Shown here piece after piece: positions 5,535 to 49,750 of a stretch of 64,000 bases of DNA. The notes under the pieces were generated by a model that did no database searches, was not told the DNA's origin, and saw nothing but the letters and a program-made list of their open reading frames with translations. Position 1 is the first letter of the stretch; each line of letters starts with the position of its first letter. This DNA comes from Natrinema sp. DC36. Lineage in GTDB: Archaea; Halobacteriota; Halobacteria; Halobacteriales; Natrialbaceae. The stretch covers positions 620,001 through 684,000 of the forward strand of contig NZ_CP084472.1 in the NCBI RefSeq assembly GCF_020405225.1, given 5' to 3'. The position numbers and the translations under genes were made by a program.

Positions 5535-5849
5535 ATGACGAAAGGTTTTGTCAGTGACGTGGTGAACGACGATACCGTAATGAGCAGCCCAGACGCAACT
5601 GTTTCTATCGACGTTTCAGACCTACCACCCGAACAAGCGTTAGCTATCGCTCGAGAGGGAGATATTGAGAATCAAGATCCATATGTAGTGGGTGAGGTGA
5701 TGTGTGGAAACGAGTCGGCTGTGAGCGAACTGTATGACGTGGAGTTTCACCTTCCTCTCGGTGTGGCGCTCACTGTCCTCTCGAACGCGGGTGTGATCGA
5801 TCTCCCGCAAGAGCCACCGCAAGAAGCACCGCCAGAGCCCGCAGAATAG
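5535..5849 (+). CDS. Acidic protein of unknown function
   Basis: 104 residues from ATG 5535, placed at leaderless spacing from its promoter; a TTG at 5532 adds one codon only. Central helical part (LPPEQALAIAREGDIENQ) and a Pro/Glu-rich tail ending PPQEAPPEPAE. Transcribed alone: the next gene has its own promoter. I do not recognise it. Confidence 0.6.
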   Translation: MTKGFVSDVVNDDTVMSSPDATVSIDVSDLPPEQALAIAREGDIENQDPYVVGEVMCGNESAVSELYDVEFHLPLGVALTVLSNAGVIDLPQEPPQEAPPEPAE

Positions 5850-28407: not shown

Positions 28408-29577
28408 TTATATTCCGTGTTTGTGTGGGTATCCCACGATGTGAAATGATTCAGATTGCATTGCAGCACGGTCTCCACTAACATTGGTTGTCTCAATAGT
28501 TGTACCAGTAAGATTGTCTGATGGGTCTATAATACCAGTAAGTGTTACTGATTCATTTTCTTGTAGAGTTCCCGTTAGTACAATATCTGTCCTACTTTCA
28601 AAGGACATTGTATATCGGTAATTGGCATCATAATTGGAATCTGTATTGACTACTGTAACGTCATATTCATCAATTATTTCATTTAGTGATTCAGATTTGT
28701 TGGCCCACCCCGATTGTGTTGCGGTTACTTGTGTTTCTGATGGGATTGATTGAATATATCTTGAATCAGATTCATTTTCAGTATAATACCTCCCATCATG
28801 GTTATGACTTGCTGGAGCGAAGTTAGAATCTGCTTGTGTCGTAGAATACGTCTCACTCGTAGAATACGCATCTAACTGACCAACAGTAACGTTGTGAGGG
28901 TTGCCTTCATCGGCTGCGTGGGTATTAAATTCCGATTGGATACCATTATTTACCCACGTTTCAGTGGCGAAGTTACGCCATGCACCTCCGACACGACCTT
29001 TAAATTTGTCAGATAGGAGGTCGTACCAGAGATCCCCATCGGACTGATTACTGGGATTATTCTCAGATGCGAATGTGTGGACACGATCTCGACCCACATT
29101 CCGAACCGCTGAAACACTGTCGTTAGTTGCAACATCCACTTCAGCAATCTTCATTCGATCGGTAGCAACAGACGTAGCTCCGTCAGTTTTCCCGACACTC
29201 CCATTGGTGTTAACCCACACCGAATCCGTTCGAGTGGAGGTACCACCATTAGAAGACAGTGTGACGGTCGTGGAGCCGATCGATCCAGTTTTTTGCCCAT
29301 CAACATAGGCTCCCTCAGAAGACGCACTCACGTCGATCTCGAGCGTTCCAGTGCCTTCTGAAGAGACAAGCCCGCTGTCGAGGATTACATCACCTTCGAT
29401 ATCCCTAATCCGATCTCGAATAGCGGTGTTTGTCGAGTCGAAATGGGTCTTGATGTTATACCATAGCGCATCAAGGTGTTTTTCATTCACCTGATCTCCC
29501 TTTTCATAATACGTCCCAGACGTGGGGAGTTCGCCCGTTTCACCCCAACTTGGGAATTCGTTTTCTAAATCACTCAT
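28408..29577 (-). CDS. Tail fibre protein
   Basis: 389 residues. Contains the phage-fibre repeats FNTHAADEGNPHNVTVGQL (shown in part) and ASHNHDGRYYTENESDSRY, i.e. the H-N-H-D-x-R-Y-Y-T-E motif of trimeric fibres; the histidines often bind iron. N-terminal helical part (HLDALWYNIKTHFDSTNT) probably joins the baseplate. C-terminal beta-rich tip. It has its own late promoter block just upstream (29585-29610), so it may be made in larger amounts than the baseplate. Confidence 0.85.
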   Translation of the reverse strand: MSDLENEFPSWGETGELPTSGTYYEKGDQVNEKHLDALWYNIKTHFDSTNTAIRDRIRDIEGDVILDSGLVSSEGTGTLEIDVSASSEGAYVDGQKTGSIGSTTVTLSSNGGTSTRTDSVWVNTNGSVGKTDGATSVATDRMKIAEVDVATNDSVSAVRNVGRDRVHTFASENNPSNQSDGDLWYDLLSDKFKGRVGGAWRNFATETWVNNGIQSEFNTHAADEGNPHNVTVGQLDAYSTSETYSTTQADSNFAPASHNHDGRYYTENESDSRYIQSIPSETQVTATQSGWANKSESLNEIIDEYDVTVVNTDSNYDANYRYTMSFESRTDIVLTGTLQENESVTLTGIIDPSDNLTGTTIETTNVSGDRAAMQSESFHIVGYPHKHGI

Positions 29578-29584
29578 ACGTTTG

Positions 29585-29610
29585 CTCTATAGTAAGATAA
29601 ATCACGAATG
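29585..29610 (-). promoter_or_regulatory. Late promoter, type 1 copy A
   Basis: On the - strand: ATTCGTGATTTATCTTACTA followed by TAGAG, 9 bases before the ATG of the fibre gene. The same 26 bases with one change occur at 37225-37250 with identical spacing to an ATG-AGT. GATTTAT is the probable TATA box at about 22-25 bp from the start. Confidence 0.6.
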
Positions 29611-35351: not shown

Positions 35352-37163
35352 TTATGCTTGTCCTCCACTCGTCCTCCCCATTCTCCACTGCGATACAGAG
35401 AGGTTCGAATTGTCCTTATTCCGATTTCCAGTAGATTCGACAGTGTAGTTAGTGACACTCGAGCCGCTACTGGTACTGAACGAAGATCCAGCACCACTTC
35501 GAGGTGCGCCACCGTCTCGGTAGGGATTCATTCCGTCCCCACCACGTCCCGCAACACTGTCGTATTCTTTCAACGATTTTGTTGCAGAATCAATCCCGTC
35601 TGCAAGACCTAACCACTTCTCTGCCGCCCCCATTGCAAGTGCCCCAAGACCGACGAGAACGCCGAGTGAGGCGACTGTAAGGAATGCGGCCAATGCTCCC
35701 GTCGCAGTGAACGCGCTTGCTGCAAACGATATCAGCGACGTTTGACCGACGATGAGAGACTTAACGAATGCGACCATCGATGTGACCGCTCTCCCTATAT
35801 TCGTCACTGCAAGATAGCCAAGCGCGTTGTTAGTAGCGATAAGACCAGCCCAGAAGTTCCACATAGCCACTACACCAGCGCCGAGAGCGCCGACAAATGC
35901 ATTCCCAACAAGGAAACTAAGAATTCCTACGATCGACGCAAGGGAGAGGAGGCTTCCCACAATAACCCCCAACATCTCGTTCGTGATACCGAACAGGTTG
36001 AAGATAGATGCGATAGCACCGAAGAGTTGTAGGACCGCGTTCGTCACGATGACGAATCCGACAGAGGTCTTCGTAAGAGCGTATGCAACATCGATCAGCA
36101 TACCAGCAAGTGCCTTCAACTGTGGCATCGATTCCATTGCCAGATTGACGAAGGTACGGAGAATCTGTGTGTCCTGAAGGTACTCCCCAATCGCCCCGAA
36201 GACGGGTGCCATTGCCTTCACAGTGCCAGCCATTGAAGAGAGGGCTCCAGGGATGTAGTCGATAAGGAACCGCCCAAACTCCCGTGAAGAGTCTCTCAGC
36301 GCCATAAGAGAGTCGCCTTCCGCAGCGACCTCGTTGAAGAACTTCTCGAGACCGTCAAGACCGTCTTCAAACAGCGGTGCGAGACGCTCGGCGAGTGGGG
36401 CAAACGCCTCGAATAGATCATCACGGACCTCCTCGAACATTTCCGTGAAGTCTTCCATTTCGGGCATTCCACCACTGTCGCCCATTGCACTACCGACAGC
36501 GCCAAGAATGCCGATTGCACCGAATGCAGCGGCGGCAGAGATAGCAGCGGCGGCAAGCGTCATAAGAGCCGTAATAGCAGCGGGCATGGCCATGATGAAC
36601 GTGAACATCAACGGCATGATGTTGGCAAGGAGATTATGCATGTCAGACATATTGAGTCTGAAATCCTTTACACTCTTAAGGGTGTCACGCACCCCATCTC
36701 CCAGACTATCTATGATCTTGGAAAGACGGCTGCCCCTCTTTCGATTGAATTTTGGACTGTCGAGTGCTGCATTGATATCGGCAGACATCTGAGCGTTCAT
36801 ATCTTCGCTCATCTTGGCGATATTAGGTTGGATATCATCGATGTCAAAATCCCCACGACCCATGATTTCCAGCGGTCCCCTATCATGAGCGCCAAATAGA
36901 TCGGGTAGATTACCGCCGTCTGCCATAATCTCAACCTCGTTAGACTTTTCAAACGCCTCCATCTGGGCTTTAAGCTTCGCTAACTCGGTGTCAAGGTTAT
37001 CGACGCTCGTATTGATATCAATTCCCTCAGATCCTTGAGCGTCAACGGCTTCAATCTGTGCTGCAAGGTCTCTGAGTTCGTCTTGTAGTTCCGAAAGAGC
37101 GGCAATGGCCTTTTTAATATTAACGTCAACAGTAACTTCGAGATTTTGAATTGCTGCGATAGT
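35352..37163 (-). CDS. Tail tape measure protein, 5' end uncertain
   Basis: From the first ATG (36962) 536 residues, but the frame is open for 67 more codons up to 37163 and those codons read like protein (VTVDVNIKKAIAALSEL, LDTELAKLKAQ) in the style of tape-measure N termini. No ATG, GTG or TTG occurs among them. The body has several long hydrophobic segments (e.g. AAITALMTLAAAAISAAAAF, LLSLASIVGILSFLVGNAF) expected of tape measures that help DNA cross the membrane, and a Gly/Ser-rich end. Length sets the tail length. See findings for the start problem. Confidence 0.75.
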   Translation of the reverse strand, partial: TIAAIQNLEVTVDVNIKKAIAALSELQDELRDLAAQIEAVDAQGSEGIDINTSVDNLDTELAKLKAQMEAFEKSNEVEIMADGGNLPDLFGAHDRGPLEIMGRGDFDIDDIQPNIAKMSEDMNAQMSADINAALDSPKFNRKRGSRLSKIIDSLGDGVRDTLKSVKDFRLNMSDMHNLLANIMPLMFTFIMAMPAAITALMTLAAAAISAAAAFGAIGILGAVGSAMGDSGGMPEMEDFTEMFEEVRDDLFEAFAPLAERLAPLFEDGLDGLEKFFNEVAAEGDSLMALRDSSREFGRFLIDYIPGALSSMAGTVKAMAPVFGAIGEYLQDTQILRTFVNLAMESMPQLKALAGMLIDVAYALTKTSVGFVIVTNAVLQLFGAIASIFNLFGITNEMLGVIVGSLLSLASIVGILSFLVGNAFVGALGAGVVAMWNFWAGLIATNNALGYLAVTNIGRAVTSMVAFVKSLIVGQTSLISFAASAFTATGALAAFLTVASLGVLVGLGALAMGAAEKWLGLADGIDSATKSLKEYDSVAGRGGDGMNPYRDGGAPRSGAGSSFSTSSGSSVTNYTVESTGNRNKDNSNLSVSQWRMGRTSGGQA

Positions 37164-37214
37164 TTAACCCCCGTTTTAAGATGTCGATGAATTTGAAATT
37201 ATCTGAATGATACT

Positions 37215-37217
37215 CAT
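37215..37217 (-). other. Promoter-proximal ATG with 13-codon leader before tape measure
   Basis: An ATG-AGT at 37217 has the same spacing from its promoter block as the fibre gene start. It opens 13 codons (MSIIQIISNSSTS), stops at TAA, meets a second in-frame TAA (37164-37166) and then the tape-measure frame continues in the same phase. Confidence 0.5.
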
Positions 37218-37224
37218 CGGTTGT

Positions 37225-37250
37225 CTCTATAGTAAGGTAAATCACGAATG
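37225..37250 (-). promoter_or_regulatory. Late promoter, type 1 copy B
   Basis: Copy of the 29585-29610 block with a single base change (C for T inside the TATA-like stretch, on the - strand GATTTACC). It lies after the end of the chaperone fusion and in front of the tape-measure gene, so tape measure and downstream genes can be transcribed separately from the sheath and tube. Confidence 0.6.
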
Positions 37251-37298
37251 GAGATAGATATGTCTACGACGTGTTGTACCGCATAAAAAAGTGCTTAG

Positions 37299-38074
37299 TC
37301 AGAACTTCGATGTCGCATTCTGGAAGTCCTGACCCTTCTCATATCCGCTTGGGTCGCCCTTCTTCGGATCGTCTGTGTGATGGTTCTTCGCCATTACGTA
37401 GACAAACCGTTGCATTGGCGTGCAATCTCGTGCCGAGGTGAACAACTTACGCCCGTTGTCATGAAGGGCGAATATCTCGTTTCCCTGGTCTGACTCGGCT
37501 AATTCTCTAAGTTTCCCGTGTCACCGATAGACTCGGTAAGACACTTGATGCCAATAGAGAACGAAGCGAATCCAGTTGCCCGATCGATCATAGGATGGAT
37601 AACCTGATTGTTGATGTACTTCGCAGCCTCTTCTTGAGTGGTTCGACCATACTGCTCTTCGATCTTATCACCAAACTCGATCAGAGCCTCCCGCTTGTCG
37701 TCATTGTCGGGTTCAACTCCATACTTCGCGGCCTTCTGAATGCCTTTGAAAGTATCCGAGGAGATGATTTCGAACATATTGACCTCACCATCCTCAAGTT
37801 CATCCTGAAGGGAATCGAGGCGAGACTGTTCCTCGTCAGTTAGTTCCTCGGAATCTCGCAGTTCACGAAAGTCTTCCATCTTCTCTTCGGGAAGACTATC
37901 CTGAAGTTCTTCAAGTTCGTCAGTATCGACCAACGACATCACTTCCCAGAATTCCGTGTCACGTAGCTGTCGGACACAAAGATTCTGTTGCTCGTCGTCA
38001 ATCGAAATCGTAATGTTTCCACGCCACTCCGCACCTTTTTCTACCTTTTCTCGTGTTTTAAAAAGATCGCTCAT
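37299..38074 (-). CDS. Tail assembly chaperone, long form by -1 frameshift (gpGT-like)
   Basis: The frame 37499-38074 gives the 191-residue short form. Three codons before its TAG lies GGGAAAC (- strand, 37517 to 37511) in the phase G-GGA-AAC, the classic X-XXY-YYZ slippery heptamer; lambda uses GGGAAAG at its G/T junction. After a -1 slip, translation continues 70 codons (LRELAESDQGNEIFALHDNG...) to a TGA at 37299-37301, giving about 258 residues. Gene order sheath-tube-chaperone-tape measure is the one in which such frameshifts occur. Both forms would coat the tape measure during tail assembly. Confidence 0.75.
37499..38074 (-). CDS. Tail assembly chaperone, short form (gpG-like)
   Basis: 191 residues, helical and acidic (MSDLFKTREKVEKGAEWRG...). 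Early strands (GNITISIDDEQQNLCVRQL) and a charged middle (SEELTDEEQSRLDSLQDELE). It is not found in virions of related phages but is needed for tail assembly. Starts 78 bp after the tube gene. Ends inside the long frameshifted form described above. Confidence 0.75.
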   Translation of the reverse strand: MSDLFKTREKVEKGAEWRGNITISIDDEQQNLCVRQLRDTEFWEVMSLVDTDELEELQDSLPEEKMEDFRELRDSEELTDEEQSRLDSLQDELEDGEVNMFEIISSDTFKGIQKAAKYGVEPDNDDKREALIEFGDKIEEQYGRTTQEEAAKYINNQVIHPMIDRATGFASFSIGIKCLTESIGDTGNLEN

Positions 38075-43679: not shown

Positions 43680-43716
43680 AGTTTTATCTAAGTTTCTGTT
43701 GTAGTATCTGCTTCTT

Positions 43717-43738
43717 ACTTAAAGTGTAATCTCGTATC
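43717..43738 (-). promoter_or_regulatory. Late promoter, type 2 copy A
   Basis: On the - strand ATACGAGATTACACTTTAAG lies inside a 22-base block (43717-43738) that recurs without change at 49729-49750. CTTTAAG is the likely TATA box; predicted start about 15 bases before the decoration gene ATG. Confidence 0.65.
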
Positions 43739-49619: not shown

Positions 49620-49728
49620 GGTCGGGGTGGCGTTCCTACCTATAAAGGGCAGAAACGAACGAGCCACGTTCGGTCCCAGCGAAATGACTCGAACAGAACG
49701 AGAGAACCAATCGGTTCACACTCGTTCT

Positions 49729-49750
49729 ACTTAAAGTGTAATCTCGTATC
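49729..49750 (-). promoter_or_regulatory. Late promoter, type 2 copy B
   Basis: 22 bases identical to 43717-43738. It precedes the terminase-portal operon, with a longer leader (about 115 bases) than the other copy. Confidence 0.65.

Follow-up and report, generated by a model that had tools for sequence, protein, structure and literature searches.

Haloarcula tailed virus 2 (HATV-2, MZ334525; Soleiviridae, Eilatmyovirus) encodes a tail tape measure protein (TMP) homologous to one in the window (the whole stretch of DNA analysed, 64,000 nt), and the two agree in gene order and in a -1 frameshift of the tail assembly chaperone. AUU start codons occur in E. coli infC and pcnB. Output-limiting non-canonical starts are already known in bacteria: for instance, Streptomyces sigR has a GTC start that is repressed by IF3, limiting output (PMC5472188). 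In archaea, Sulfolobus aIF1 discriminates against non-canonical starts (PMC8211752; PMC6237735), and in Haloferax volcanii Shine-Dalgarno (SD) sites reportedly have no function in de novo initiation at 5′-UTRs and are helpful in reinitiation (PMC6728339). Gene pairs of the latter organism with 13-14 nt gaps still reinitiate at 40-60%, and gaps of 22-23 nt abolish this (PMC10666635). In the part of the literature covered, we found no report of near-cognate starts in archaeal viruses or tape-measure genes.

A tape-measure frame without a canonical start codon

The window TMP matches its HATV-2 counterpart (37% over 275 aa, E 9e-28) and comes after the genes for the sheath, the tube and the chaperone with its frameshift. 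The features of the region are as follows:

35352..37160, minus strand: TMP gene, proposed extent, with an ATC start and 602 aa plus stop (HATV-2 homology; alignment to 13 relatives)
36963..37157, minus strand: N-terminal 65 codons of the TMP, from the ATC to the first ATG, under purifying selection (codon-position differences; residues kept)
37158..37160, minus strand: proposed start codon ATC, in the column of Met1 of most relatives and of the ATT of L067 (see below)
37167..37172, minus strand: SD-like GGGGGT, 6 nt before the ATC (dG -8.7 with the host anti-SD AUCACCUCC)
37176..37217, minus strand: leader ORF of 13 codons, MSIIQIISNSSTS, plus TAA (translation), its stop 15 nt before the ATC
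37212..37250, minus strand: promoter-like block, 87% identical to 29572-29610; promoter role putative
37285..37290, minus strand: T6 run after the chaperone gene, a possible terminator judging by its letters
37299..38074, minus strand: tail assembly chaperone, ORF 38074-37499 with a -1 frame extension to 37299, annotated likewise in HATV-2
37511..37517, minus strand: slippery heptamer GGGAAAC of the chaperone frameshift (sequence)

Read on the minus strand, the TMP frame opens at 37163, and the next ATG, GTG or TTG, at 36962, lies 67 codons on; it is there that the ORF lister places the start. Translation across the region reads MSIIQIISNSSTS-stop-NGG-stop-TIAAIQNLEVTVDV..., with in-frame TAA codons at 37178-37176 and 37166-37164 separating ATG 37217 from the TMP frame. 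Sequence and translation thus confirm what an earlier note on this DNA had remarked, namely 67 open codons without ATG, GTG or TTG, and an ATG at 37217 that shares the frame of the TMP and is cut off from it by two TAA codons. The shared frame is probably a coincidence, with a chance of 1 in 3.

The gene belongs to a provirus (window positions 15759-64000; G000:C1:563948-707578) of which the genome carries two identical copies, offset by 71,811 bp, with an integrase gene at the provirus end. The matches are 71,820 bp each and overlap by 9 bp (TACTGCCAG), as expected for a perfect tandem dimer with a 9-bp core; the dimer may reflect a genuine double lysogen, or it may have arisen in assembly from virus DNA that was replicating. 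The TMP region is identical in both copies. Nearly all relatives have a slippery heptamer, GGGAAAC or AAAAAAC, at most a few hundred bases ahead of the TMP.

The start column among related tape-measure genes

We compared the window TMP with 13 relatives, 12 with an ATG start and L067; the close ones came from sheath-alignment scans of viral contigs, and a TMP scan supplied additional ones. Scans of viral and genome contigs with the single TMP sequence gave no matches, an HMM built from the N termini of distant TMPs proved too weak (E 0.039), and a DNA-level search found no near copies outside the genome; one candidate near copy, L081, was a chance match. HATV-2 alone, before the closer relatives, gave the first hint of Ile ATC 37160 as the start. 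The ATG-started proteins begin MAAIENL (L072, L075, L076), MATIQNLEV (L074), MADQNLE (L066), MASIED (L085), MAIESLE (L087), MAEVENL (L070), MADVENL (L078), MAEVEQL (L080), MADVDNL (L090) and MVDVDTL (HATV-2), and the window reads stop-T-I-AAIQNLEV. In an N-terminal alignment extended beyond each start into the upstream residues, the Ile of the window falls in one column with the Met of 10 relatives, and L066 and L087 are one residue shorter. Coding homology extends to the ATC, and in-frame AUG, GUG and UUG are absent there; the window TMP has no ATG start, a feature that is usual among the relatives seen and does not define the protein family. None of the homologues begins at the Met equivalent to 36962, the outcome that the earlier note had named as a refutation, and its suggestion of a non-AUG start (ATC or ATT) near 37150 gains support, with the codon now placed at ATC 37160-37158.

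L067 (IMG/VR 3300026124_000005) reads stop-C-P-I-SAIENLK, with an ATT in the window-ATC column and no Met for 127 codons. It is identical across the 1,400 bases compared to L068 (3300026140_000011) from a second metagenome assembly, and since the two metagenomes may share one site, we count both as a single case. In both the window and L067 an in-frame stop one or two codons upstream makes an upstream in-frame start impossible. L067 also has an out-of-frame ATGCCCC (L067:6070) directly before the ATT, from which a +1 slip would reach the TMP frame too.

In both trees, that of the sheath and that of the TMP, the sister of the window is L074, an ATG relative (98/95 and 99/99), and L067 groups with L066, L072 and L075, all with ATG (84/94 and 96/97). 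Because the two sit with different ATG relatives, AUG was probably replaced twice; two independent AUG to AUY replacements are the simplest reading of these trees, and a single loss of AUG with several regains is a possible alternative history.

The stretch above 36962 bears the marks of selection. Over codons 2-67, the share of codons that differ at positions 1/2/3 is 38/11/61% between the window and its nearest relative L074, and 50/18/65% between the window and L067. Twenty-one residues do not vary among four ATG relatives; 20 of these are retained in the window, and likewise 20 in L067. On these comparisons the open stretch is conserved coding sequence and not a chance opening, and selection on the N terminus in both non-AUG lineages speaks against both a dead gene and a start at 36962.

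Shine-Dalgarno context and the route of the ribosome

The host 16S genes end ...GGATCACCTCC. With a longer anti-SD, the GGGGGT site is the strongest among the 30 window start regions listed. In L067 the ATT is preceded by AGGTGAT at -9.5 kcal/mol, next to -8.7 kcal/mol in the window, giving the near-cognate starts a supporting SD context; positions scoring as well as these sites make up ~3% of the window locus and ~1% of the L067 locus. Among the 12 ATG relatives only L078 has an SD of -8 or stronger (-11.7), the others being at -6.4 or weaker; the difference between non-AUG and ATG relatives gives a Fisher p of 0.033, weak statistics with two non-AUG cases. We read the strong SD as likely compensation for a weak start codon, two cases being too few for proof.

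We consider it likely that the TMP starts at the near-cognate AUC 37160-37158 with GGGGGU as a compensating SD and with low output. The initiator Met-tRNA would read this AUC to give M-AAIQNLEVTVDV..., a protein of 602 aa, and GGGGGU, 6 nt upstream, would set the small subunit in place and partly offset the weak AUC. The resulting low output would fit a protein required in few copies per virion. The subunit might arrive de novo, or else through reinitiation following the leaderless ORF of 13 codons that ends 15 nt upstream; the former route is disfavoured by the reported inactivity of H. volcanii SD sites at 5′-UTRs (PMC6728339). Counting against AUC initiation are this inactivity, the discrimination by aIF1 in Sulfolobus, the small number of non-AUG cases (two) and, in L067, an ATG that lies out of frame 7 nt ahead of the ATT.

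The promoter-like block belongs to a 39-bp direct repeat with ATGAGT, recovered by repeat and genome searches ahead of two late units; its other copy, 29572-29610, contains the ATG with which another late gene (28408-29577) begins. TATA boxes of halovirus HF2 promoters begin at -26 (PMC8707807), a spacing that would put the transcript start at or a few bases past ATG 37217. Since the block includes ATGAGT, the transcript may begin near this ATG, with the leader read as a leaderless ORF. The leader stop lies 15 nt from the ATC, within the limit of about 20 nt for reinitiation (PMC10666635). An upstream-ORF shuffle test gave 6/14 against 2.4 expected, and it includes upstream genes, so that it is not clean. 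Reinitiation after the leader, which had been suggested beforehand, stays a possible route to the ATC; conservation of the leader ORF, however, was not found in the relatives. Coupling is not a shared feature, since in L067 no such leader ORF ends ahead of the ATT.

Some further elements were seen around these genes. L078 has a 17-codon ORF (MADRFTTLNDTPIRGEL) 53 nt upstream of its TMP ATG at 5603, with a stop that overlaps this ATG and a strong SD (GAGGTGA) ahead; it looks like a reinitiation mini-cistron. ACTATAG also lies upstream of the TMP in L066, L075 and L076. Between late genes, a 23-bp sequence, TACTTAAAGTGTAATCTCGTATC, recurs exactly and in direct orientation (43716-43738 and 49728-49750); it is perhaps another promoter class.

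Alternative readings and known systems

A tentative extension of AUC initiation, which we think rather unlikely, is that AUC and AUU are a selected control, throttling the TMP or giving it aIF1 sensitivity, with the leaderless mini-ORF of the window delivering reinitiating ribosomes. It is unlikely, too, and more so, that we see nothing more than a defective or miscalled start codon, ATG having become ATC by mutation or sequence error, with full-length TMP made in small amounts or not at all. ATC is one base from ATG, provirus genes can decay, and one consensus could underlie both provirus copies; against this, ATT stands at this position in a second lineage, found in two metagenome assemblies, the TMP is otherwise without lesion (602 open codons, with the 20 of 21 invariant N-terminal residues kept), and the two identical 71.8 kb copies have intact-looking late genes. 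The recurrence of the oddity as ATT likewise makes the sequence error considered by the earlier note improbable, and the window itself could still err.

A recoding event is a good deal less plausible: ribosomes from ATG 37217 would bypass both stops, by hopping (e.g., from the leader AUC to AUC 37160) or by frameshifting, and in L067 would slip +1 on AUGCCCC. ATG 37217 is indeed in frame and follows the promoter-like block, and L067 does have ATG CCC C just upstream of its ATT, but the leader ORF is not conserved, no relative needs one, and the window and L067 would require different recoding events. Moreover, there is no stable RNA structure at the window start (z 0.90; 162/200 shuffles fold as well). 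Readthrough of the two TAA codons, another option raised at the outset, was rejected, as the relatives begin at the ATC column and nothing upstream is conserved.

Very improbable is a start at Ile ATT 37151-37149 or another codon within the first ten; this ATT is near-cognate too and some distant relatives are a few N-terminal residues shorter, but every close relative starts at the ATC column or one codon later, the SD spacing would be 15 nt, and the corresponding L067 codon is ATA. Scarcely credible is a start at the first ATG, 36962, below a frame open by chance: it is the default gene-finder call, but the codons above it are conserved, it has no SD, and no homologue starts there.

Initiation at AUC 37160-37158, in conjunction with the AUU of L067, would be a case, drawn from comparative genomics, for haloarchaeal initiation at AUC and AUU, with the AUG homologues as natural controls, and offers a direct test of whether a strong SD, reported inactive de novo in H. 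volcanii, matters at a weak start codon. As ordinary gene finding would trim 66 residues off this TMP, similar haloarchaeal virus genes may be mis-annotated.

Set against known systems, the window TMP differs from that of HATV-2, which has an ATG start and no strong SD, in its ATC and strong SD. It shares with L067/L068 a TMP without AUG, an Ile-codon start in the same column and a strong SD; these, however, have ATT, sit on another tree branch and have no leader ORF ending upstream. The termination-reinitiation of H. volcanii (PMC6728339, PMC10666635) resembles the window in that a short upstream ORF has its stop 15 nt before an SD-preceded start, but the H. volcanii pairs are real, mostly overlapping genes, whereas in the window the 13-codon ORF is not conserved and the start is not AUG. 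Finally, the proposed start of the window TMP would resemble those of sigR, infC and pcnB, a non-canonical codon limiting output; the latter are bacterial genes, with IF3, whereas the window presents a structural gene of an archaeal virus whose regulation is putative.
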